From positions 1 through 44,149 of the IMG/VR virus record IMGVR_UViG_3300045970_001349: 44,149 bases of DNA; one strand, written 5' to 3'. The stretch is from a virus. A program made the position numbers and the translations under genes. Of this stretch, positions 1-44,149 are shown one piece after another (positions within the stretch are counted from its first letter, which is position 1; the number at the start of each line of letters is the position of its first letter). The notes beneath the pieces are model-generated. The model worked only from the letters and a program-made list of their open reading frames with translations. It was not told the DNA's origin and made no database searches.

Positions 1-564
1 TCACGACGCGCCTCCAGAAGCATCCGCGGCACCCTGGCGCGAATCCGCAGCCTGGATACTTTCGGCCGGCCCGCACGTCCCCGTGAGGCCCGCCAGCAGA
101 CTCGCGCCCGTCGTCAGCGCAGGCGGCACATCGACGCCGGCCGCTGCGATGGCCGCGAGCACGTCCTGCACGCTCGCCGCCAGGCACGCGGCGACCTCGA
201 GCCACGGCGCCCGATCGTCGAGCCGCTCGCCAGCATCGACGGCAGCCTGCGCAGCTCGCAGCGCACGGTCGGCCACGCGGATGGCGGCGATCGCGTCGTC
301 GAAGCCGTGCGCATCGAGGCAGGCGTCGAGGGCGGCGGCGCGCTCGGGCGAGGCGGCGGGCAGGTCGGCGACGTCCGCGCAGGTGACGGTGAGCGCGTCG
401 GCGATCGCGTGGTCGGCGACGTCGACGGCGACCGCTCCGACCTCGATGGTCGTGCGCGCGGAGTCCGCCCACCCGACGCAGGCGGGGAGCGCGATGGCGA
501 GGGCGGCGAGCAGCGAGAGCAGAGCGAGCGGCGTGGCGAGGTGTCGAGTGCGAGGCGTGGGCAT
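1..564 (-). CDS. Predicted lipoprotein at the lysis end of the virion operon
   Basis: The product is 187 aa. It starts with basic residues, then a hydrophobic stretch (about residues 11-28) ending in a lipobox-like LPAC with Cys29, so it is probably exported and lipidated. The rest is Ala/Asp-rich and helical, with no catalytic motif I can recognise. The ATG is preceded by a CGGAGA ribosome site. It is the last gene of the leftward run, after a coiled-coil membrane protein and a holin-like protein. An outer-membrane spanin-type role is therefore possible, although 187 aa is long for an Rz1-type protein. The stop codon is the first three bases of the window, so the gene is complete. The export signal is visible in the sequence; the lysis role is inferred only from position. 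Confidence 0.6.
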   Translation of the reverse strand: MPTPRTRHLATPLALLSLLAALAIALPACVGWADSARTTIEVGAVAVDVADHAIADALTVTCADVADLPAASPERAAALDACLDAHGFDDAIAAIRVADRALRAAQAAVDAGERLDDRAPWLEVAACLAASVQDVLAAIAAAGVDVPPALTTGASLLAGLTGTCGPAESIQAADSRQGAADASGGAS

Positions 565-25439: not shown

Positions 25440-28015
25440 TGGGCTGCCCTCCTGTCGTCGTCGTCGTCAAACCCCGCGTCACCAAAGGGCAAAGAGGTCT
25501 GGTCTTCGCCTCGTGACACGATGAAGACCCACGCTCTCCGGCCGTCAGGGAGGCTCTTCTTGGTGTGCAGCGAGTGGGTCGGGTCGCCGTTCGACGATGA
25601 AAGCAGGAGGTCGTGAGTCCGCCACTCACGAGCGCATCCGGCGAGGGTCAGGTTGTGCTTGTTGAACTCGGTCGCGAGCGGCCCAGGCAGCAGCCAGTAC
25701 TCGTCGCGCCCCTCGGGCACGTAGCCCATGATGGTGCGCGCGGGCCGGCTGCCCTTGAAGTTCCAGTGAGGTGTCCCTGTGCCTGACAGCTCGGGGACGA
25801 TGGTGGGGAAGGCTTCGGTCTGAGACGCCACGAGCTCCCGCAAGACTTCCAGCCCTCGTTTCCACTCCGGCACGACCTCGACACGGTCAGCGAAGGCGGG
25901 GATCGAGAGCATCGTGTTGCCGCCCGGCTTCCCGATCCCGAAGCGCTCGAAGGCGAGCTGCTCGGCGAGCGCGAGCACGGCGATCAGCTCCATGCCGCGC
26001 GCCTCCACCGTGGTGGAACTCATCCCCTGCAGGGTGCTGCGGAGCTTCTCGAGGCGCTGCACGAGGTCTCGGGTGTTCACCCCGCACAGCATCGAGACCC
26101 ACTCGCGTCCGAGATGCCCGTGGTGCGCGAGGGCGCCGCTCTTGAGCGCATCGACGTCGATGGCGCCGAGCTCGCCGAGGTCGTCCATGCGCAGCTGGAT
26201 GAGCCGCGCGTGCGCGCCGGTACGCGCCGACTCGTCGACGAGCGGCATCTCGCCGGTGGACACGAGCCCGACCTTCCAGGCCGCCTCCCGTCGCAGGCCG
26301 CCCTCACGGGTGGCTCGAGCCTTCTCGTGGCCGTTGACGAGCCCGTAGACGGCGTCCTGGCGTTCTACGGGGTCACGGAGCTCGCCAGCCTCGTCGAGGC
26401 AGAGCGGCAGGTGATTCGCCGCGAGGGCGCGCTGGGCGAGGGCGTTGGGCGTGCTGCGCCACGTGAGCAGCATCGAGTCGGCCCGGGTCGAGTCGGGCAT
26501 GCCGTAGACGGCTGCGGCCACCTGGGCCGCAGTAGTCTTGCCGCGCGAGCTCGGCCCGACGATGTGCACGGCGGGCGCGGGCACGTCGAGGAGGGCCGCG
26601 AGGGGCGCCGCGAAGGCCGCCATGACGACCGTCGCCGCGGCGATGTGCGCCTCGAAGATGCGCTTCGTGAGCGCGAGCTGCAGGTCGCGCGAGCCCGCGA
26701 CGCGCACGGCGCCCGCGATGTGCGGGTGTGCCGAGCGGTCGATCTCGAGGTCGGCGACGTCGATGCCCGGCGCCGCGATCGCGTCCCCGCCGAGGACGAA
26801 CACGCGGCGGCCCGTGAGCGCCTGCCACCCGCCGGCGGTGAGCAGGGTCGCGCGGGGGATGGCCGGTCGGTTGACGGCCTCGTAGGCGGTGAGCCACCCG
26901 ACGATGGCCTTGCTCACGTTGGACGAGACGGGCGCGCCTGAGGGGGCGAGGCGCTTGACGAGCTCGCGCGCGTCGCAGATGGCGAGGCGCTCGACGATCT
27001 CGGTGCGCCAGACGCCGTCGACGCGGAAGCGCACGCGCACGCGCACCTGGCCCGAGGTCGCGTCGGTGAGGATGCGGTCGATGAAGATGGGGGCGTGCGC
27101 CACGCGGCCGTCGCCCGTGCGCTCGAGCGAGCCGTCGCGCGAGAGCCGGTAGTCGGGCGGCAGGCGCGCGTCGCCGACGGGGGCGTTCTCGAAGCCAGGC
27201 TGGTCGACGATGCGCTCGAGCTTCTCGAGCTCGACGGGGGCGTCCGCCTGACGCACGGGGCCGGCGCGTCGAGACTCGGCTGCGAGCTGCTCGAGCGCCT
27301 GTCGTCCGTGGTCGCGCAGGTAGTCGTCGACGCCGACCTTCTCGTGCGTGCCGTCGGCCTTCGCGGGTCCGGGCGGGAGGCGCACGACGAACGCGCGGCC
27401 GCCGGCGTCGGCGATGGCGGTGGCGAGCGCGTTCTCGGCGCGCCGCACGCCCTTCATGTTCGTCTCGCGGTCCGAGTCGTAGACGATGAAGACTTCGCCG
27501 GCGTTGCGACACGCGCGCTCGATCTCGGGGAAGAGGCGCTTGGCCTTGCGGACCTCGCGACGCGGGCCCCAGCAGTCGACGCCGCACGTGCCGATGGCGA
27601 CGAGTCCGGCCGAGTCGAGCGAGAGCGTCTTCTTCTCGCCCTCGGTGATCCACACGGGGCGGGTGCGGTCGTCGAGCAGCTCGGGGGCCTCGAGGACCGA
27701 CGGCGGGATGTACGGCGCGAGCACGCCCGTCGTGCGCACGTACTTCGTCGACTTCTCGCCGTCGTGGCGGTCGGTGCTCACCCAGGGCGCCGCGGGCTTG
27801 ACGGCGTAGAGCACGGCGTCCGCGCAGCCGGGGCGCCGGTAGGGGAACACGAGCGCGGGGAGCTGCCCCTCGGCGAAGGGGCGCTTCTGCTGCGCGAGCA
27901 TCTTCCGGAGCTCGGGCACGTGCGAGACGGAGTGCACGCCGGCGCGCGCGAGCACGCTCTCGCTGATGGCCGAGCCGCGCACGAGCTCGTCGAGGTGCTT
28001 CGGATCGAGCGTCAC
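25436..28015 (-). CDS. Toprim (DUF3854-like) + DUF927 primase/helicase
   Basis: The 859-aa product joins a Toprim-like N-terminal region to a P-loop ATPase. Toprim landmarks are Glu125 in VWITEGEKK and the acidic pair in VYDSDRE (about 179-183). The DUF927-type helicase has Walker A GPSSRGKTT (487-495) and Walker B LPLCLDEAGEL (Asp541, Glu542). Such proteins drive phage or plasmid replication and can prime and unwind at the origin. The C-terminus ends in an acidic patch. I prefer the GTG at 28015, which overlaps the methyltransferase stop, over the GTG six codons earlier. The repeat cluster just downstream is the likely origin. Confidence 0.8.
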   Translation of the reverse strand: MTLDPKHLDELVRGSAISESVLARAGVHSVSHVPELRKMLAQQKRPFAEGQLPALVFPYRRPGCADAVLYAVKPAAPWVSTDRHDGEKSTKYVRTTGVLAPYIPPSVLEAPELLDDRTRPVWITEGEKKTLSLDSAGLVAIGTCGVDCWGPRREVRKAKRLFPEIERACRNAGEVFIVYDSDRETNMKGVRRAENALATAIADAGGRAFVVRLPPGPAKADGTHEKVGVDDYLRDHGRQALEQLAAESRRAGPVRQADAPVELEKLERIVDQPGFENAPVGDARLPPDYRLSRDGSLERTGDGRVAHAPIFIDRILTDATSGQVRVRVRFRVDGVWRTEIVERLAICDARELVKRLAPSGAPVSSNVSKAIVGWLTAYEAVNRPAIPRATLLTAGGWQALTGRRVFVLGGDAIAAPGIDVADLEIDRSAHPHIAGAVRVAGSRDLQLALTKRIFEAHIAAATVVMAAFAAPLAALLDVPAPAVHIVGPSSRGKTTAAQVAAAVYGMPDSTRADSMLLTWRSTPNALAQRALAANHLPLCLDEAGELRDPVERQDAVYGLVNGHEKARATREGGLRREAAWKVGLVSTGEMPLVDESARTGAHARLIQLRMDDLGELGAIDVDALKSGALAHHGHLGREWVSMLCGVNTRDLVQRLEKLRSTLQGMSSTTVEARGMELIAVLALAEQLAFERFGIGKPGGNTMLSIPAFADRVEVVPEWKRGLEVLRELVASQTEAFPTIVPELSGTGTPHWNFKGSRPARTIMGYVPEGRDEYWLLPGPLATEFNKHNLTLAGCAREWRTHDLLLSSSNGDPTHSLHTKKSLPDGRRAWVFIVSRGEDQTSLPFGDAGFDDDDDRRAAQ

Positions 28016-28668
28016 GCTGGCCTCCGGATCCACCCGAACGAGGGGCGGCTTCCTGGGCGTGGTGCGCGCGCGAGCACGTCGACGATGCAGAAGTCGCTCT
28101 CGGCGCCGTTGCTGACGAGGCCGACACGCCGCGCCTCGCGCCCGAAGTCGGGGCGCTGCGGCAGCACGAGCACCTGGCGCACGTCGAAGCGCGACCAGAG
28201 GCGCTCGTGCCGTGTGCTGCCCGCGAGCGCGTTGAGGCGGAGGATCGCGACCGCGCGCGGCACGAGCGTGAGGGCGCGGTCGATGTGCGCCGCGTCCGCC
28301 CCGTCTTCGTAGGGCGGATTCATCGTGGCGACGTCCCAGGTGCCGATCCGCAGATCGAGGAAGTCGCCGGTAACCACGGACCCCCTGGGGTTACCAGCGA
28401 AGCGACGGCGCGCGCGCGCTGCGACCTTCCTGTCGAGCTCGACGCCGAGGACGCTTGAGGCGCCCGCGTCAACACACGCACGGACAAGCTCGCCGTCGCC
28501 GCACGAGGGCTCGAGCACGTGCTTGCCACGGACATCGGCGACCTCCGCGACGATGTCGGCGAGCCAGGGCTCGGTGAGCCACTGGCTGAGCTCCATGACC
28601 CTGCGCTGCGCGGGTGTGAGCCGCGCGCGCTTCTCGTCGCGTGTGAGCCTGCGGGCGAGGTGCGTCAT
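28012..28668 (-). CDS. DNA N6-adenine methyltransferase
   Basis: The product is 218 aa. Motif I is VLEPSCGDGEL (residues 51-61), the acidic residue after strand 2 is GVELDRK, GDFLDLR supplies the next acidic position, and the catalytic motif IV is NPPY (117-120). This is the gamma-class amino-methyltransferase order, and NPPY points to adenine. No target-recognition domain of usual size is present, so specificity is unclear. It probably protects phage DNA against host restriction or marks it. ATG start, ATGA overlap. No matching endonuclease lies nearby, so it is an orphan enzyme. Confidence 0.8.
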   Translation of the reverse strand: MTHLARRLTRDEKRARLTPAQRRVMELSQWLTEPWLADIVAEVADVRGKHVLEPSCGDGELVRACVDAGASSVLGVELDRKVAARARRRFAGNPRGSVVTGDFLDLRIGTWDVATMNPPYEDGADAAHIDRALTLVPRAVAILRLNALAGSTRHERLWSRFDVRQVLVLPQRPDFGREARRVGLVSNGAESDFCIVDVLARAPRPGSRPSFGWIRRPA

Positions 28669-29261
28669 CGTGCAGCCTCGGGCGATGCGCGGAAGAAGCG
28701 GTCCTCGCCTGGACAGTCGATCTCGACGGCCTGCGGATGCTCGGTCTTGTAGACGGCGATGCGGGCCGCGCTGCTCGCCCAGTCGGTCGGCGTGCCCTCG
28801 CAGGGGTTGCGAGGGTGGCGTACGAGCTCGAGGGCGACGTCGACCTCGGTGAGCCAGAGCGGCAGATACCGCGTGCGCCATGGGAGCTGGCGCGGCCATC
28901 CGACAGGCGCTGCCGTCGACTCGCCGAGCCCGAGCAGCCAGAGGCGCGTGGGCGGACGGTGCGCGTCGAAGAGCTTGGTGTACTTGCGCGCATGCGTATC
29001 CCACTCGAGGCCAGGCACAGCGCCAGCGCTGGCCCTGAGAGCGGTGTGATAGGCCGCGCACGCGTCGGGGTTGGCCCAGCCGCCCTCCGACACGCACACG
29101 CGCGCGAGCACGAGTGACTGCTGGCGTTCGAGCAGGGCTGCGCGGAGAACGGTCCTGCGGTCCTGCGCCTCAGCCGGCCGCGTGCTGCAGTCGACGCAGC
29201 TGCCGATCCCGATGCTCGCAGCGATCCCGGCGAGGATGATGGCGTCGAGCGTGCGTGTCAC
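28665..29261 (-). CDS. Secreted or membrane-anchored protein, possible cell-wall hydrolase
   Basis: The 198-aa product starts with a hydrophobic segment (residues 4-22, LDAIILAGIAASIGIGSC) that could be a signal anchor, then a soluble domain. LVLARVCVSEGGW resembles the A-R-x-x-x-x-E-x-x motif at the start of some cell-wall hydrolases, and the Trp/Pro/Cys-rich centre fits an envelope protein. If so, this would be a signal-anchor-release endolysin, placed far from the holin-like gene. The match is weak and I do not see a complete active site. GTG start overlapping the upstream stop (GTGA). Confidence 0.45.
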   Translation of the reverse strand: MTRTLDAIILAGIAASIGIGSCVDCSTRPAEAQDRRTVLRAALLERQQSLVLARVCVSEGGWANPDACAAYHTALRASAGAVPGLEWDTHARKYTKLFDAHRPPTRLWLLGLGESTAAPVGWPRQLPWRTRYLPLWLTEVDVALELVRHPRNPCEGTPTDWASSAARIAVYKTEHPQAVEIDCPGEDRFFRASPEAAR

Positions 29262-30165: not shown

Positions 30166-30173
30166 GGCGGAAT

Positions 30174-30201
30174 CTTATAGGCGACAACCTATAGGCGTCA
30201 A
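30174..30201 (-). promoter_or_regulatory. Leftward early promoter with repressor operators
   Basis: On the minus strand a -35 box TTGACG (30201-30196) and a -10 box TATAAG (30179-30174) are separated by 16 nt. The spacer and flanks hold two copies of the operator (CCTATAGG core; plus-strand sites at about 30175-30185 and 30187-30199). A weaker copy lies at about 30240. The rightward promoter at 32563 has almost the same sequence. Transcription should start near 30167, only about two bases from the 77-aa HTH gene start. Confidence 0.75.
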
Positions 30202-30225
30202 GCGATACAACGGAGAGGGGGCCTC

Positions 30226-30756
30226 ATGTCTAGGTCACAGCCTATATTGCGCGACCATCAAGGACCGGCTCACTCTTCGTCCGTGCATCCCAAGCTGCGC
30301 GGGTCAACGGTGGGCGCTCGTATCCGAGAGGCGTACCAGAACGCTGGGTTGAATCGGAACCAGTTCGTGAAGCGCTCGGGTCTCGACTACTCAAGCGTCA
30401 ACGACTGGGAGAAGGGCGACGTCGCGCCGCGCATCGACAGCTTGGAACGAGTCGCGACGGCGACGGGATACACCGTCGGGGAACTGCTCGGCGAGCCCGA
30501 GGCGAAGGTCGAACGAGAGTCGACCACTGCCGTCACCGACTTCCTCGAGCAGATGGGCGCGCGCGTGACTCCAGAGCACGCGGCCGTGCTCCGCTCTATC
30601 AACTTCGGCGGGATGGAACCGACGGTCTCCAACATCGCAGGGATCTGGGGCGAGCTCCGCGCCGCGGATGGAGGACGTGCGGTTCCTGCACACGTCATCG
30701 AACCGCCACCACTGCCCGAAGGCGCCCGACGGCTGCCCAAGAAGGTGAAGAAGTAG
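30226..30756 (+). CDS. XRE-family phage repressor (ImmR-like)
   Basis: The 176-aa product has an XRE HTH at about residues 29-89 (with GLNRNQFVKRSGLDYSSVND and GYTVGELLG). A C-terminal region of about 85 residues contains an acidic/hydrophobic stretch and a basic end. There is no LexA-type Ser-Lys peptidase signature, so it should not self-cleave. Instead an ImmA-like metallopeptidase is encoded next door, as in ICEBs1-type immunity. A GGAGAGGGGG site precedes the ATG at 30226. It would hold down both flanking early promoters, which share operators, and it lies between them. Confidence 0.8.
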   Translation: MSRSQPILRDHQGPAHSSSVHPKLRGSTVGARIREAYQNAGLNRNQFVKRSGLDYSSVNDWEKGDVAPRIDSLERVATATGYTVGELLGEPEAKVERESTTAVTDFLEQMGARVTPEHAAVLRSINFGGMEPTVSNIAGIWGELRAADGGRAVPAHVIEPPPLPEGARRLPKKVKK

Positions 30757-30793: not shown

Positions 30794-31429
30794 ATGCACG
30801 ACCTTGAGGGGGTTGCCGGCGACCTGTTGTCTGCGACGGGGCTCGATGACGTCCCGGGGGACGCGTTCGTGCTCGCCGCCTCCTGCGGCATCACAGTCCG
30901 CGCCGGACATCGCTCCGGAGCTCGGCGTGATGGCGATGTCGTGTACGTCGACGCGAAGGCGCGACGACAGCGCCAGCACGGTCTGCTCGCCCATGAGATC
31001 GGCCACTGGGCGCTCGAGCGCGCCGGCGAGGATCCTCATGACGAGGCCGCGGCGCGCTTTCTGTCGGGTGCGTTGCTCGTTCCGCGGCGGTGTCTCGACC
31101 GCGACCTCCGCACGACATGGCGGCTCGACGCGCTGATGGCACGTCATCCGAACGCGAGCGGGGAGATGCTCGCGCGGCGCATCGTTGAGCTCCGCGATGC
31201 GGTCGTCACCATCCTCGACCACGGGACCGTGCGCGCCCGGTTCTGCTCGCCGGCCGTGCACGCGCCCGCGCGGATGACGAGGGTCGAGCGCGAGCTCGCC
31301 GCCCAGGCGCTCGAGCACGGGCACATCGTCGAGGCCGGTGCCCTCGTGCACGCCACGCCGATCTTCGAGGGGACGTGGCGGCGCGTGATCGTCGTCGCCG
31401 AGGCCGAGCAGCTCGCGATGCGGTGGTGA
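30794..31429 (+). CDS. ImmA/IrrE-type metallopeptidase (anti-repressor)
   Basis: The 211-aa product has the zinc-protease motif HEIGHW at residues 67-72 and a following Glu in DPHDEAAARF (about 80-89), the usual ImmA/IrrE set of ligands, then the FLSGALLVPR helix. ImmA-type enzymes cut the partner repressor after DNA damage or a signal and so induce the element. It lies 37 nt after the repressor gene and is probably co-transcribed. The C-terminal ~80 residues (DHGTVRARF onward) are beta-rich and may hold the regulatory part. Confidence 0.85.
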   Translation: MHDLEGVAGDLLSATGLDDVPGDAFVLAASCGITVRAGHRSGARRDGDVVYVDAKARRQRQHGLLAHEIGHWALERAGEDPHDEAAARFLSGALLVPRRCLDRDLRTTWRLDALMARHPNASGEMLARRIVELRDAVVTILDHGTVRARFCSPAVHAPARMTRVERELAAQALEHGHIVEAGALVHATPIFEGTWRRVIVVAEAEQLAMRW

Positions 31430-31448: not shown

Positions 31449-32507
31449 CTACTGCTCGTCGACGAGCTCGCCGTACGTCGCGGGAATGCCTGCCGCGAGC
31501 GCGAGCAGGATCTGACCTGTCGCATGGGCGTCGGCCTGGGCGCGGTGTGCCTGCGCATGTGCGATGCCCATGCGCGCAGCGACCTGTCCGAGCTTGTGTC
31601 CGTCCTCGTGAAACGCGAGCTGTCGCACCCAGAGGAGCGGGTCGATCCAGACCACGTCAGGACGTAGAGCGGGCACGTCCTCCGCGCTCGGCGGTCTTCC
31701 TGCGCGCTCGAACTCCGCATGCAGGAAGCCGCGGTCGAACGAGGCGTTGTATGCGACAGGGATCCTGTCGTGTAGAAGGCCGGCGATCTCCGGCACGAGG
31801 TCGCAGAAGCTCGGCGCGTTCTTCACGTCTGCGTCGGTGATCCCGTGGATCGCGGTCGAGCCTTTCGGGATCTTGCGGCCCGGATGGACGAGCCGTTGCC
31901 AGCTCCCTGTGGCGATGCCGTTCTCGAAGAGCACGATCGCGATCTCGATGATGCGGTGTTCGTTCGCTCCGAGCCCGGTCGTCTCGAGATCGATGACGCA
32001 GAACGAATCCGCCCACCGACGATCGCGTGCGAACGAAGACGCAGCCCTCGTCCTCACGTTTGTCCTCTCCCTCACCCTTACCGTCACCTTCGGCGGCGTC
32101 ATCGCCAGCAGCATCGCCTCAGATTCTGCTAGCTGCCGCTGTGCCTCGACGATCGACGCCCCGAGGTCGCGTAGCTGCTGCGCGTGCGCGCTTCGCCGGC
32201 GCATCTCGTCCTCGTACGCCTTCCGACGGCCCCGCTCACGCCAGAGGAAGAAGGCGACGAAGGGGGCGCCGAGCATGAAGAACGCGCACGACATGGCGCC
32301 GCAGCTCGGGAACATGCTCTCGTCTGCGACGGCTGCCGCCGATGGCTTCGAACGCAGGATCGGTGCTGCGACGGTTGTCCCCGCATCTACCTGAACGACT
32401 CCCGCGTCGCGCCGATGGCGCCGCGATCGTCGCTGCGCTTCGGCGGGGGATATCACTGCAAGCGCGACCAAACACCCGACGAGGAAGCCCGCAGCAATCG
32501 CTTTCAC
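31449..32507 (-). CDS. Membrane-anchored DEDDh 3'-5' exonuclease
   Basis: The 352-aa product starts with a Sec signal peptide (residues 1-25, ending AEA), then a ~45-residue extracytoplasmic segment. Next come a transmembrane helix (about 72-89, CAFFMLGAPFVAFFLW), a basic stop (RERGRRK) and a coiled linker. The C-terminal half is a DnaQ-type exonuclease with ExoI VIDLETTGL (Asp173, Glu175), ExoII YNASFDRGF (Asp258) and ExoIII H-x4-D (His321, Asp326). It would place nuclease activity at the inner face of the membrane. Its GTG start and leftward direction, opposite to its neighbours, mark it as a separate cargo gene beside the immunity genes. Confidence 0.75.
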   Translation of the reverse strand: MKAIAAGFLVGCLVALAVISPAEAQRRSRRHRRDAGVVQVDAGTTVAAPILRSKPSAAAVADESMFPSCGAMSCAFFMLGAPFVAFFLWRERGRRKAYEDEMRRRSAHAQQLRDLGASIVEAQRQLAESEAMLLAMTPPKVTVRVRERTNVRTRAASSFARDRRWADSFCVIDLETTGLGANEHRIIEIAIVLFENGIATGSWQRLVHPGRKIPKGSTAIHGITDADVKNAPSFCDLVPEIAGLLHDRIPVAYNASFDRGFLHAEFERAGRPPSAEDVPALRPDVVWIDPLLWVRQLAFHEDGHKLGQVAARMGIAHAQAHRAQADAHATGQILLALAAGIPATYGELVDEQ

Positions 32508-32550
32508 ACGGCGAGATTCGACGCCGAACGGACGAATTGCAACCTTGGGC

Positions 32551-32591
32551 GTCGCCTATAGCTTGACGCCTATAGGTGACTGCCTATAATC
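32551..32591 (+). promoter_or_regulatory. Rightward early promoter with repressor operators
   Basis: A near-consensus sigma-70 promoter is present: TTGACG at 32563-32568, a 16-nt spacer and TATAAT at 32585-32590. Operator copies with CCTATA(GG) cores lie at 32551-32562, 32565-32580 (GACGCCTATAGGTGAC, nearly palindromic) and 32581-32591, so they cover the -35, spacer and -10. The spacer is nearly the same as in the leftward promoter at 30174-30201. It drives the plus-strand early operon beginning at 32632, with a leader of about 35 nt. Confidence 0.85.
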
Positions 32592-33148: not shown

Positions 33149-33351
33149 TCTCGCGCGCTCTCTGCGGCCTCTGCGGCGCCGACTGGACCGACGACGGGCC
33201 GACCTGCGAGTGCGGCGCCGCCACGAGGCTCGAGGTGACGCCGTCGCAGCGGTCGCAGCTCGAGCGCTTCGCGGCGTACGTCGCGCTCGGCATCCACCCG
33301 CGCGAGGCCGGCCGCCTCGTGTCGGGCCGCTCGAAGATCGGGGTGGCGTGA
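33145..33351 (+). CDS. Small zinc-ribbon protein
   Basis: The 68-aa product starts MISRALCGLCGADW and then has CECGAAT, giving two C-x2-C/C-x-C pairs typical of a small zinc ribbon. The C-terminal half is helical (SQLERFAAYVALGIHPREAG). It overlaps the gene before (ATGA) and the nuclease gene after it (TGATG), so it is probably made together with the nuclease. It may help DNA binding in that complex. No known family. Confidence 0.6.
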   Translation: MISRALCGLCGADWTDDGPTCECGAATRLEVTPSQRSQLERFAAYVALGIHPREAGRLVSGRSKIGVA

Positions 33352-34439
33352 TGGCGGCCGTGCGCTGGGATCCGAGGAAGTTCGGCACTGCTGCCGACCC
33401 CGTAAGACAGAGTGCCCTGAACTCCATTGCCTCGCAGAACGGCTGCCCAAAGCGCTACTTCTACGAGCGCGAGGCTGACGCGGCGGGCACGACTCCGCCG
33501 CGGCGCGCGAGCTGGAAGCCGGTGCTCGGCACGGCGGTGCACGCGGTCATCGAGCGCGGCCTCAACAAGACCTGGGCGCTGCTCGAGTCGCTCTACGGGC
33601 CCGAGGCTCGGCCCGCCGAGCGCCCCGCGGACGCGAAGCTCGACTGGGCGCCCGATGGGCTGCGCCGGCGCATCGAGGAGGTGCTGCGCGAGGAGCTCGA
33701 GCGCGAGTGCGTGGTGCTCGCCGGTGTCGACGAGACGGGCGCGCCGCGGCCGGCGCTGCCGATCGAGTGGTACGACGACAAGCCCGACACCGAGATCGCC
33801 GCAGGCGTCGCGATGGCGCTCGGCGCGCTGCGCACGACGGTCGAGCGTGCCGAGTCGGTCGTCGGCACCGAGGTGCCGTTCCGGGCCGAGCTCGAGGGCT
33901 ACGAGCTCGAGGGCACCATCGATCTGCTCTACCGGCGGCGCGGGGACGGCGCGCTGTGCCTGGCCGACTGGAAGACGGGCGAGCGGAAGCTGCCGCAGAT
34001 CCTCCTCGACTACGGCTACCAGCCGGCGACGTACTCGTACGCGGTCGAGCACGGGCGCCTCTGGGCGGGCACCGACTCTGAGGCCGTCGTCGGCGAGCAC
34101 CCGGCCGAGCTGCACATCGTGCACCTGCGCGACTTCGTGCCCTACGTGAAGAAGCCGCGGGCCGCGGGCAAGGGCGTGGGCGACCTGCGCGGGCCGGGCT
34201 GGTACGCCTCGCAGCGTCGCAGCGAGGACCGCGCGCGCCTGGGCGCGTCGCTGCGCGCGGTGGTGGGCACCGTGCGGATGAACCGGCGCCTCGAGGCGCT
34301 CGGCGAGCAGTGCGCGCGGTGCCCGTTCAAGAGCGCCTGTTTGGGCGACGGGTACGCGCCAGTCGGAGACGAGGCGCGCGACCTCGCCGCGCTCGTGCGC
34401 GACCTCGACCTCGGCGACGCGTCCGACCTCAGCGACTGA
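33351..34439 (+). CDS. Cas4/AddB-like PD-(D/E)XK nuclease with Fe-S cysteines
   Basis: The 362-aa product has GTAVHAVIERG (60-70), Asp191 in LEGTIDLLYR, Asp206 and Lys208 in ADWKTG, and Gln224/Tyr in YGYQPATYSYA. These are the core motifs of RecB-family nucleases. Cys32 (QNGCPKRYF) and C-x2-C-x5-C near the C-terminus (Cys321, 324, 330 in CARCPFKSAC) give the four-cysteine pattern that holds an Fe-S cluster in Cas4 and AddB. It probably resects DNA ends for recombination. No cas1/cas2 genes or CRISPR array are present, so this is a phage recombination nuclease. TGATG start overlap. Confidence 0.85.
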   Translation: MAAVRWDPRKFGTAADPVRQSALNSIASQNGCPKRYFYEREADAAGTTPPRRASWKPVLGTAVHAVIERGLNKTWALLESLYGPEARPAERPADAKLDWAPDGLRRRIEEVLREELERECVVLAGVDETGAPRPALPIEWYDDKPDTEIAAGVAMALGALRTTVERAESVVGTEVPFRAELEGYELEGTIDLLYRRRGDGALCLADWKTGERKLPQILLDYGYQPATYSYAVEHGRLWAGTDSEAVVGEHPAELHIVHLRDFVPYVKKPRAAGKGVGDLRGPGWYASQRRSEDRARLGASLRAVVGTVRMNRRLEALGEQCARCPFKSACLGDGYAPVGDEARDLAALVRDLDLGDASDLSD

Positions 34440-39325: not shown

Positions 39326-40990
39326 ATGGCGACGACATTCCCGACGAAGCAGCTGCACGAGAGTCCGACGAACCCGCGCAAGATCCGCGACGCCACGGCC
39401 GACGCCGAGCTGCTCGCGAGCGTGAAGGAGCACGGCATCCTGTCGTCGTTGCTCATCCGGCCACGGCCGAAGAAGCAGGGAGGCGGGTGGGAGGTGGTGC
39501 TCGGCGCTCGCCGGCTCGAGGCGGCGCGCGCGGCCAAGCTCGTCGAGGTGCCCGCCGAGCTCCGCGAGGACCTCGACGACGAGAAGGTGCGCGAGTTGCA
39601 GATCATCGAGAACGGGCAGCGCGCCGACGTGCACCCGCTCGACGAGGCGGTGAGCTACCAGGTGCTCGTCGACGAGTACCGTCGCGACGCGGACTGGATC
39701 GCCGCGCGCGTGCACAAGTCGACCGCGCACGTGCGTCGTCGGCTGCAGCTCGTGCTGCTCGGGGACGCGGGGCGCAAGGAGTGGCTCGCCGGCCGCATCA
39801 GCGAGGACGCGGCCTACGTGCTCTCGCGCGTACCGAGCAAGCTGCAGGGCAAGGCGGTCGAGCGTGCCATCGAGGGCAACACGCCCGAGTCGTGGGAGGC
39901 GGCGGACGGCGCGAAGTTCGACGTGGTCTCGGGCGCCGACATGCGCGACGTCGTGCGCCGCGAGATGACCCTGCCGATCGTCGATGCGCCGTTCGACGCG
40001 GCGGACGCGACGCTCGTCAAGAAGGCGGGGAGCTGCACCGCGTGCCCGAAGCGCACCGGCGCGCAGCCCGTGCTCTTCGAGGACCTCAGCAGCAAGGAAG
40101 ACCTCTGCACCGACACGCACTGCTACCGCGCCAAGTGCGACGCGCGGTGGGCGCGGATCCTCATCGAGGCGAAGGCGAGCAAGGCGAAGGTGCTATCGCC
40201 CGCCGAGACGAAGAAGCTCTACCCGCACGACACCTCCCACCGCGTCGCGTACGGCAGCGAGTGGATCGACCTCGACGACACCGGCGCGGATGGCCGCAAG
40301 GCGCGCGAGGTGTTCGCTGGCGATCTGCCGCCGGTCGCGTACGCGCAGCGCCATGACGGTGTGCCCGTCACGCTCGTCTCCCGCGGCGACTACGAGCGCG
40401 CGGCGAAGTCGTACGCAGCCAAGGCGACGAAGGCCTCGGCGAGCGGCGCGGGCAAGGCCTCGACGAAGGGCGCCTCGAGCGCGAGCGCCGAGAAGGCGAA
40501 GGAGCAAGCGAAGAAGGACCGCGAGGCCGAGAAGCGCAAGGAGGCGGTGCGCCTCTTCGCTGCTCGCCGCGTCATGGCGGCGTTCGTTGCAGGCGCTGAG
40601 CGTGACGAGGTCGGCGTCGAGGCCCAGGTGCGCGCGCTCGTCGCCGTCGAGATGACGATCCGCCACGACGACGCCTTCAAGGAGATCGTCGCCCGCCGCG
40701 GCCTCTCGCTCCTCGACGTCGCCACCGAGAAGTCGATCGACGCGTTCGAGGCGCTCACCCGCTTCGCTGCGGAAGCGAAGGGGCCCGGCCTCTGGGGCCT
40801 GCTGCTCGAGCTGTGGCTCGGCCGGCCGGGCATCGACGCGGAGTCGCCCGAGTACGCCGCGCTCGCCCGAGCGTTCGGCGTGAACGTGAAGGCGATCGCC
40901 AGCACGGCGGCGTCCGAGCTCGAGCGCATCGCCGACGAGAAGATGGTCAAGGTGCCGGGCAAGGCATCGAAGAGGGTGGTGCCGCAGTGA
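39326..40990 (+). CDS. ParB/Srx-domain protein
   Basis: The 554-aa product has a ParB N-terminal domain: PTNPRKIRDATADAELLASV, GILSSLLIRP and GARRLEAARAAKL (box II with GARR in place of GERR), then QIIENGQRADVHPLDEA. A KorB/ParB-type HTH region follows. About residues 236-275 have CTACPKRTG and LCTDTHCYRAKC, a zinc site. A Lys/Ala/Ser-rich linker (about 365-405) leads to a helical C-terminal part. No ParA gene is near, so the role may be DNA binding, CTP-switch clamping or nuclease activity in replication rather than partition. Confidence 0.7.
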   Translation: MATTFPTKQLHESPTNPRKIRDATADAELLASVKEHGILSSLLIRPRPKKQGGGWEVVLGARRLEAARAAKLVEVPAELREDLDDEKVRELQIIENGQRADVHPLDEAVSYQVLVDEYRRDADWIAARVHKSTAHVRRRLQLVLLGDAGRKEWLAGRISEDAAYVLSRVPSKLQGKAVERAIEGNTPESWEAADGAKFDVVSGADMRDVVRREMTLPIVDAPFDAADATLVKKAGSCTACPKRTGAQPVLFEDLSSKEDLCTDTHCYRAKCDARWARILIEAKASKAKVLSPAETKKLYPHDTSHRVAYGSEWIDLDDTGADGRKAREVFAGDLPPVAYAQRHDGVPVTLVSRGDYERAAKSYAAKATKASASGAGKASTKGASSASAEKAKEQAKKDREAEKRKEAVRLFAARRVMAAFVAGAERDEVGVEAQVRALVAVEMTIRHDDAFKEIVARRGLSLLDVATEKSIDAFEALTRFAAEAKGPGLWGLLLELWLGRPGIDAESPEYAALARAFGVNVKAIASTAASELERIADEKMVKVPGKASKRVVPQ

Positions 40991-42249: not shown

Positions 42250-42479
42250 AGACCGAACCCGGACCGCACGACATGACGAAGGTGAAGCTCGAGACGACCT
42301 CGTTCGAGGGGCACTGGGGTGAGCTGCGCCCTAAGATGGTCGCTGTGTTCAGCCAGACGTCGTGCTCCGATCTGTCTGACGCTCACCGAGAGTGGCGCCA
42401 CACGATCATGACCGATGTGTTCCTCGACGGCGGCATCGAGTGCGGGTACTGCGGCGCGATCGTCCGGCCTGCACGATGA
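42246..42479 (+). CDS. Small hypothetical protein before the recombinase
   Basis: The 77-aa product starts MKTEPGPHDMTKVKLETTSF and ends with GIECGYCGAIVRPAR, a C-x2-C pair. It overlaps the upstream gene and the recombinase start by ATGA, so it is likely made with the recombinase. It could be a directionality factor by position (small, next to the integrase), but no motif supports this. Confidence 0.55.
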   Translation: MKTEPGPHDMTKVKLETTSFEGHWGELRPKMVAVFSQTSCSDLSDAHREWRHTIMTDVFLDGGIECGYCGAIVRPAR

Positions 42480-44149
42480 CCGCCTCTCTCGCAGGCCTGC
42501 GCGTGGCCGTCTACGCGCGCTTCTCGTCCGACCGCCAGCGCGAGACGAGCATCGAGGACCAGGTGGCGCGCGCTCGGCGGTGGGCCGAGGACCGCGAGGG
42601 CACCGTCGACGACGAGCGCGTCTTCGCCGACTTCGCGGTGTCGGGCGCGTCGATGGCTCGCCCGGGGGTGAGGCTGCTCGAGCAGACGCTCGCGGCGCGC
42701 CCGAGGCTCGTCGACGTGCTCCTCGTCGAGGGCCTGTCCCGCATCTCGCGCGACTCGGCCGACCTGCAGCCGTTCCTGCGCCGCGTGCAGCACACCGGCG
42801 TGCGCATCGTCGCCGTGGACGGCAGCTACGACTCGGCCGCCGGCGAGACGACGGCGCAGACGATGTCCCACGTGGGCGGGCTCGTCTCGACGCTCTACCG
42901 CGTGGGCCTGCGCGACATGACCATCCGCGGCATGGAGGCCCGGGCGCGCGCGGGCAAGAGCACGGGCGCAGTGCCGATCGGCTACCGCAACGTGCCCGAG
43001 CCCGACGGTCGCAAGCGCATCGAGATCGACGAGCCCCGCGCCGAGATCGTGCGGCGCATCTTCGCCCTGTACGCCGAGGGGCACTCCCAGGCGACGATCG
43101 CGGCGACGCTCACGCGCGACGGAGTGCCCCCGCCTCGAGCTCGCCGCGGGCCGGCGTGGATCCACACCGCCGTCCGCGCGATCCTCCGGAACGAGCGATA
43201 CCGCGGGCGGTGGGCGTGGGGCGCGCGCGAGTGGCGCATCGACCCCGTCGACGGCCGCCGCCGCCCTCGCCGGCGCGACCTCGGCCCGCGGCACGTCGAG
43301 GAGCGCCCCGACCTGGTCATCGTCGACGCCGCCCTCTGGGCCGCCGTGCAGACGCGCGCGGACGCCGCCGCGGGGCTGTGGCGCAACGCGGGCCCGAAGC
43401 CTGGGGCGCCCATCGCCCGGCGCGCCACGCACCTGTTGTCCGGGCTGCTCGTGTGCGAGTGCGGCTCTACCATCGAAGTCTGGGGCAAGGGGACGCACGA
43501 CGCCTACCTGCGCTGCGCAGGCGCCCGCCGCGGCTCGTGTGCGCAACGCCGCTCGTTCCGCCAGTCGATGGCCGTCGCCGCGCTGCTCGCGGCCGTGCGC
43601 GCCTCGACGATGACGCCGCGGACGGTCGCGTACATGCGGGCCGCGGCCGAGCGCGCGATCGCCACCGCCTCGGCAGCCGCGACGGCCGACGTCGACCGCC
43701 TGCGCGCGCGCGAGCTGCAGGTCGTCGCCGCGAGCCGCCGCCTGGCTGGGGCCATCGCCGACGGGGCTGGGTACGAGACCGTCCGCGCCGAGCTCGACGC
43801 CCGCGAGCACGAGCTCCGCGAGGTCCGCGCCGCGATGGAGCGTGCCCGGTCGACGTCTACGGCGCTCGACCTCCCGACCGTCGACGAGCTCGTCGAGGGC
43901 GGGCAGGACTGGGGCCGGAACGTCGCCGAGAACCCCAGCCGCGCCCGCGAGGGCCTGCGCAGCGCGCTCGAGGGCGGCACCCTGCACGTCCGATGGACCG
44001 ACGCCGGTGCGCGCCTGACGGGCCAGTGGAGCCCGTTCGCGCTGCTCCTGGCCGTCCCCACGCACGAACGGCCGACCCAAGAGAGGGCCGGCCGTTCGAG
44101 AACTGTGGTTGCGGGGGCCGGATTTGAACCGACGACCTTCGGGTTATGA
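42476..44149 (+). CDS. Large serine recombinase (integrase) running into the tRNA
   Basis: The 557-aa product has the resolvase catalytic domain with AVYARFSSDRQRETS (nucleophile probably Ser17) and VEGLSRISRDSADL. The recombinase domain follows (GAVPIGYRNVPEPD, FALYAEGHSQATIAATLTRD, ILRNERYRGRW), then a zinc ribbon (CECGSTIEVW to CAGARRGSC, about 325-352) and a coiled coil (about 395-465). It would catalyse integration and excision. The last ~28 residues are encoded by a hairpin and the tRNA 3' end (GAGFEPTTFGL is a known tRNA-derived peptide), so the stop lies in host-type sequence. The ATG overlaps the previous stop by ATGA. Confidence 0.85.
   Translation: MTASLAGLRVAVYARFSSDRQRETSIEDQVARARRWAEDREGTVDDERVFADFAVSGASMARPGVRLLEQTLAARPRLVDVLLVEGLSRISRDSADLQPFLRRVQHTGVRIVAVDGSYDSAAGETTAQTMSHVGGLVSTLYRVGLRDMTIRGMEARARAGKSTGAVPIGYRNVPEPDGRKRIEIDEPRAEIVRRIFALYAEGHSQATIAATLTRDGVPPPRARRGPAWIHTAVRAILRNERYRGRWAWGAREWRIDPVDGRRRPRRRDLGPRHVEERPDLVIVDAALWAAVQTRADAAAGLWRNAGPKPGAPIARRATHLLSGLLVCECGSTIEVWGKGTHDAYLRCAGARRGSCAQRRSFRQSMAVAALLAAVRASTMTPRTVAYMRAAAERAIATASAAATADVDRLRARELQVVAASRRLAGAIADGAGYETVRAELDAREHELREVRAAMERARSTSTALDLPTVDELVEGGQDWGRNVAENPSRAREGLRSALEGGTLHVRWTDAGARLTGQWSPFALLLAVPTHERPTQERAGRSRTVVAGAGFEPTTFGL
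44065..44098 (-). terminator. Long hairpin just downstream of the tRNA 3' end
   Basis: Two 14-nt arms (44065-44078 and 44085-44098) pair with one mismatch around a 6-nt loop. Seen from the tRNA (minus strand) it starts 7 nt after the CCA, the usual place for a tRNA terminator, though no U-run follows. It is also inside the last codons of the recombinase. It may be host sequence beside the attachment site. Confidence 0.55.
44106..44149 (-). tRNA. tRNA-Met (CAT), 3' part only
   Basis: On the minus strand the sequence ends in CCA (44108-44106) and has a 7-nt acceptor strand, a T-arm with loop TTCAAAT and stem GTCGG/CCGGC (one G-U), and a variable loop AGGTC. The anticodon arm breaks off at the window end; the anticodon reads CAT. 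The 5' half lies beyond position 44149. A tRNA-Ile2 with the same anticodon is possible. It is the probable right attachment boundary of the prophage. Confidence 0.8.

Follow-up and report, generated by a model that had tools for sequence, protein, structure and literature searches.

Among the systems described to date, SNIPE is a membrane-bound nuclease that cuts phage DNA during injection and thus provides a precedent for defense by a tethered nuclease (PMC13190303), and SieA is an inner-membrane exclusion protein encoded by a prophage (PMC10883804). The exonuclease gene considered here (31449-32507, minus strand) is found in a linear, possibly incomplete IMG/VR virus record with a length of 44,149 bases and a GC content of 70.7%, the whole of which we refer to as the window. 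Like SNIPE (PD-lambda-1), its product is predicted, as judged by its sequence and structural model, to possess an N-terminal transmembrane (TM) anchor that would hold the nuclease at the inner membrane, facing the cytoplasm, and SNIPE homologues themselves vary in the kind of TM segment (PMC13190303). Unlike SNIPE, which combines DUF4041 with a GIY-YIG endonuclease, the window protein has a helical stalk bearing a DEDDh exonuclease, with RNase_T as its only Pfam match and neither DUF4041 nor GIY-YIG detected by Pfam; in addition, its gene is phage-borne and lies beside phage immunity genes. The latter position, with a membrane protein encoded within the lysogeny region or close to it, is shared with P22 SieA, HK97 gp15, Sie2009 and Ltp, but these are small membrane proteins or lipoproteins devoid of a nuclease, and exclusion is a putative role for the window protein. 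Within the open-access literature, we found no earlier description of a tethered DEDDh exonuclease beside immunity genes or of TM-DnaQ proteins encoded by the lysogeny modules of phages.

The initial annotation had recognized a complete DnaQ-type exonuclease at this locus, and our analysis bears this out. The open reading frame, with a GTG start, encodes a 352-residue protein with predicted 3'-5' exonuclease activity, in which PF00929 (RNase_T) matches residues 171-333 (31509-31997, minus strand) with an E value of 2.2e-28. All five catalytic residues of the three Exo motifs (D, E, D, H, D) that typify DEDDh enzymes were found where they had been placed, at D173, E175, D258, H321 and D326, and they are invariant across an alignment of nine sequences. 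The exonuclease domain of the AlphaFold model has a pLDDT of about 97-98, and a Foldseek search with this model returned DinG, PolC and epsilon exonucleases as the best solved matches (E down to 2.8e-14), as expected of the RNase_T/DnaQ fold; a PDB search with the protein itself yielded PolC, DinG and epsilon exonucleases as well. The protein also matches phrog_192 (3.5e-49), a phage DnaQ family annotated as DNA polymerase exonuclease subunit, with which it shares a homologous exonuclease domain including all five catalytic residues; the usual members of that family are soluble, in contrast to the TM anchor and stalk of the window protein. A further DnaQ domain match (1.9e-44) was to the PADLOC candidate defense protein PDC-S48, an assignment we rejected because the match is partial, being limited to positions 4-167 of the 411-position profile, with the remainder of that family profile absent from the window protein.

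Upstream of the catalytic domain, there are two hydrophobic segments, residues 1-19 (Kyte-Doolittle 2.34) and residues 70-88 (Kyte-Doolittle 1.90; 32244-32300, minus strand). The second is the TM helix with positive-inside residues that the initial annotation had claimed, with a negative N-flank and a positive C-flank; based on the positive-inside rule, this charge bias predicts an N-out/C-in orientation, with the exonuclease facing the cytoplasm and held at the inner membrane, again as originally proposed. In the AlphaFold model, this TM segment continues without interruption into a charged helical stalk (residues 89-136; 32100-32243, minus strand), the two being spanned by a single helix from residue 74 to 136 with a pLDDT mostly of 84-96. 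We are less certain about the Sec signal peptide (residues 1-24, with an AEA/Q junction; 32436-32507, minus strand). The hydrophobic segment on which that claim was based does exist, rendering a signal peptide plausible, and chance is an unlikely origin given that, of the 271 window ORFs with 60 or more residues, only 2 begin with a stretch this hydrophobic, the other being a lipoprotein-like ORF at 1-564 (minus strand). However, the start codon is uncertain, with no clear Shine-Dalgarno sequence upstream of the GTG, and GC3 over residues 1-65 is 0.65-0.68 vs. 0.80 for the whole gene and about 0.9 typically, indicative of a weak coding signal there; moreover, the arginine-rich RRSRRHRR immediately following the first segment would be unusual in an exported segment or loop. 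Coding is clearly backed from about residue 65 onward, with a GC3 of 0.93 over the TM segment (residues 65-95). An alternative start at Met65 would lose the signal-like segment and yet retain the TM helix; the anchor does not depend on the signal peptide. The N-terminal 165 residues as a whole showed just a chance-level match to a spanin (E = 0.08).

As to genomic context, the gene is situated, as the initial annotation had described, between the immunity genes and an early promoter. On one side are an ImmR/CI-like helix-turn-helix repressor gene, immR (30226-30756, plus strand), and immA, encoding an ImmA-like metallopeptidase of the Peptidase_M78 family (30794-31429, plus strand), with which the exonuclease gene is convergent; on the other is a plus-strand promoter, TTGACG-16-TATAAT, at 32563-32590. 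Operator-like repeats, TAGGYGACNNCCTATA, occupy the divergent region between immR and cro (30172-30246), together with a minus-strand promoter-like site (30201-30172), and the same repeats lie over the early promoter (32545-32590), at a distance of about 40-83 bp upstream from the start of the exonuclease gene. Counting exact or one-mismatch copies of TAGGNNNNNNCCTA, we found 6 in the window vs. 1.5 expected, with 5 of the 6 located in one or the other of these two regions. These common repeats suggest that the two early promoters, leftward and rightward, are under the control of a single repressor. Since the operator overlaps the first codons of immR at the annotated ATG (30226), the true start of immR is probably the in-frame GTG at 30310. 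The promoter that the initial annotation had ascribed to the exonuclease gene itself was not borne out, as we saw no sigma-70-like promoter on its strand, but with its start about 40 bp from the operators over the early promoter, the repressor could either activate or silence it. On a larger scale, immR and immA, followed by the exonuclease gene on the opposite strand, are placed between a minus-strand block containing the structural genes, terminase and primase and a plus-strand early operon encoding a PD-(D/E)XK exonuclease (33255-34439), a RecD-like helicase, a RuvC-like resolvase and ParB. The ParB-like gene (39326-40990) carries ParB_N and HTH_ParB domains; no integrase was recognized among the window proteins searched, and so the virus may be a phage-plasmid or else the contig may be incomplete.

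A sister phage (G013) provides a clue to the nature of this slot. Its PD-(D/E)XK exonuclease, our reference gene for this comparison, is 58% identical to that of the window and its RecD 50%, and it also carries CII-like and repressor genes, yet no DnaQ match was found in the 22-kb fragment available. The interval separating its repressor gene from the early operon contains instead, on the minus strand, a 151-residue ORF with a lipoprotein-like start (L173:2078-2533), with the lipoprotein and repressor calls in this fragment having been made by eye. The presence of a different gene in the same slot and on the same strand suggests that the slot carries exchangeable genes, and the window exonuclease accordingly looks like swappable prophage cargo, as the original reading of its position had anticipated. 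We also note that the small, cysteine-rich, lipoprotein-like product of the sister-phage ORF may be an exclusion protein in its own right.

Based on these features, our best single guess, tentative as it is and short of an even chance, is that the gene is SNIPE-like prophage cargo, with the tethered exonuclease attacking DNA that enters the cell. In this model, an accessory gene of a temperate phage would encode an inner-membrane-anchored DEDDh 3'-5' exonuclease, with its TM helix, helical stalk and cytoplasmic catalytic domain in succession, that would degrade linear or single-stranded DNA during membrane entry, above all that of other phages. Host DNA, being closed and circular, offers no 3' end, and the tether would keep the enzyme at a distance from the nucleoid; for both reasons, we propose, such DNA would be spared. 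Sequence and model together establish the fold, the active-site residues, the tether, the location beside immR/immA and the shared operators, and sequence comparisons support the view that the layout recurs in other phages, within their lysogeny modules (see below), and that a cargo-like swap took place in the sister phage; we infer from these that the gene may be expressed in the lysogen, that DNA may be the substrate and that phages may be excluded by the exonuclease. In direction, the gene opposes the lysogeny module that it adjoins, although its position beside that module is the one occupied by superinfection exclusion genes. Several considerations count against exclusion: 1) CI-DnaQ genes elsewhere are co-directional, whereas this one is convergent with immA and showed no promoter of its own; 2) the operators upstream of the exonuclease gene could equally silence it in a lysogen; 3) DnaQ-type exonucleases mostly require free 3' ends or single-stranded DNA, and injected phage DNA circularizes soon; and 4) a recombination operon adjoins the gene, offering another role.

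This other role, which we deem somewhat unlikely, is that of a recombination or replication accessory, trimming ends for the PD-(D/E)XK exonuclease, RecD-like helicase and RuvC-like resolvase or serving as a proofreader, with the membrane as a platform for replication or recombination. Besides the early operon next door, the phrog_192 annotation and the phylogeny of the catalytic domain speak for it. The window domain falls in a group with six viral DnaQ proteins, all soluble (support 97/83), and the genes near related soluble DnaQ genes include those for a DNA polymerase, a ribonucleotide reductase and RecE/RecT. With its nearest kin being soluble exonucleases of replication and recombination modules, we can only surmise a defense role. 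A topology uniting all TM forms, the window protein included, in one clade was rejected (p-AU 1.7e-38), implying that the anchor was gained separately in the window protein, and that the lysogeny-module clade is not direct kin of its catalytic domain. A structural relative (G016) likewise has a soluble DnaQ, located elsewhere. On the other hand, the exonuclease gene is on the strand opposite to the early operon, no phage DNA polymerase was recognized among the window genes searched, the sister phage has no DnaQ match in spite of its conserved early operon, and a proofreader is not expected to have a membrane anchor.

To return to exclusion of incoming DNA, we looked for the same architecture in other phages. 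Direct scans, including a single-protein scan of viral contigs, disclosed no full-length homologue, and a genome scan with the exonuclease protein yielded three DnaQ proteins, all soluble. A profile scan provided 80 viral DnaQ loci, which further scans expanded to 100 distinct contigs; an N-terminal TM segment was present in 11 of these 100, a proportion that is no population estimate because contigs entered the sample on the basis of their similarity to the window protein or to its TM relatives, and 9 of the 11 were near a CI repressor and/or integrase. Among those whose flanks we retrieved and annotated (L106-L114), a CI-like repressor was near every TM-DnaQ gene and an integrase was near most of them as well, with the order CI, TM-DnaQ, integrase in L106 and L107 (the latter deduced from its match to L106). 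Several of the 11 come close to the window protein in layout, L031 and L039 most of all, both with a TM segment, RRRR, a charged stalk and a C-terminal exonuclease. A co-oriented CI gene no more than about 3 kb away accompanied 8 of 11 TM vs. 16 of 89 soluble DnaQ loci (Fisher p 4e-4, leave-one-out profiles), but most TM-DnaQ proteins share one part of the tree with soluble DnaQ-BRCT proteins and independent pairs gave no signal (3 usable pairs), so this association is not independent of ancestry and we have rejected it as independent evidence. The initial annotation had reasoned that its reading would fail if the homologues were host DNA-repair genes lacking a membrane segment; the nearest kin are indeed soluble, but the phage-borne TM relatives above do exist. 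A simple host-repair gene is not supported since the gene sits on a phage contig, although other fusions of DnaQ to membrane segments do exist on host plasmids. These are proteins of Paracoccus and Cupriavidus plasmids (L099, L100, L102 and L103; in Paracoccus beside response regulators), which resemble the window protein in having a DEDDh exonuclease C-terminal to membrane segments and differ in having two TM segments, a long, sensor-like middle with PAS/kinase-like features and a host signaling context.

A broader view, possible but doubtful at this stage, is that the fusion of a membrane anchor to DnaQ-type exonucleases has happened repeatedly in phages, with the resulting genes placed within the lysogeny module or next to it. 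This would have given rise to an undescribed class of superinfection-exclusion enzymes that destroy DNA where it enters the cell, a TREX1-like exonuclease counterpart of SNIPE. If true, this would represent a second, independent way in which location, as opposed to sequence, directs a nuclease to incoming DNA and would assign a function to a recurrent, unexplained lysogeny-module gene that is annotated today as a polymerase subunit; the relatives in unrelated phages (L031, L033, L034) open the idea to direct test. With respect to these relatives, a scan seeded with L031/L039 was dominated by low-complexity stalk patterns, and a link to thaL, a transmembrane HIRAN protein from the pneumococcal lysogeny module, was dropped since no HIRAN domain was found in L033. 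Other membrane layouts of viral DnaQ exonucleases include a C-terminal TM segment (L095) and a DUF4236, TM and DnaQ combination (L148).

Soluble DnaQ exonucleases occupy a similar position in cultured phages of Streptococcus, Staphylococcus and Campylobacter. In the annotated phages IPP62, phiSa2wa and Javan549 and the satellite Javan175, the gene lies between repressor and integrase, and in CJIE4-1 it lies beside the CI repressor. These genes resemble that of the window in adjoining a CI/ImmA repressor, but all the proteins checked lack a TM segment, mostly have a BRCT-like C-terminal part and belong to another branch of the family, and their genes are co-directional with the repressor. The CJIE4 exonuclease of Campylobacter was found by proteomics in lysogens, and its module, which carries a KAP NTPase, alternates with a module bearing a non-specific endonuclease (DNase) tied to inhibition of natural transformation (PMC3995785). 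This alternation fits with yet another function, namely that a prophage protects itself by degrading single-stranded DNA from transformation or conjugation, thereby avoiding deletion by recombination or induction by RecA filaments. Single-stranded DNA is a usual substrate of DnaQ-fold exonucleases. Campylobacter prophage DNases do block transformation (PMC3995785), and C1-type pneumococcal prophages are induced by imported single-stranded DNA (PMC12637031), but we consider self-protection unlikely.

TREX1 is a membrane-anchored DEDDh exonuclease, and a comparable clean-up or anti-defense function, in which the membrane-bound enzyme removes nucleic acids or oligonucleotides that trigger host defense, can be envisaged. 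TREX1 clears cytosolic DNA that would activate cGAS-STING (PMC12206365), and DEDD diDNases occur in prophages and near defense systems (PMC11706625); however, no sensor or defense partner was identified here and the relation to TREX1 in sequence stops at the superfamily, making this function improbable. Least probable of all is that the tether is an artefact, with translation beginning downstream of the TM segment to yield a soluble exonuclease: the weakly coding residues 1-65, the GTG devoid of a clear Shine-Dalgarno sequence and the soluble nearest kin would agree with it, but the GC3 across the TM segment, the helix running on into the stalk, the rarity of such a signal-like start among window ORFs and the same layout in unrelated phages all speak against it. 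Elsewhere in the window, long ORFs of 565-570 residues without Pfam or PHROGs family matches are found on both strands at 42383-44127, and a protein of unknown family with a hydrophobic start (28665-29261, minus strand) adjoins a DNA methyltransferase-like gene (28012-28668) that matches the PADLOC mad2 and orphan methyltransferase models.
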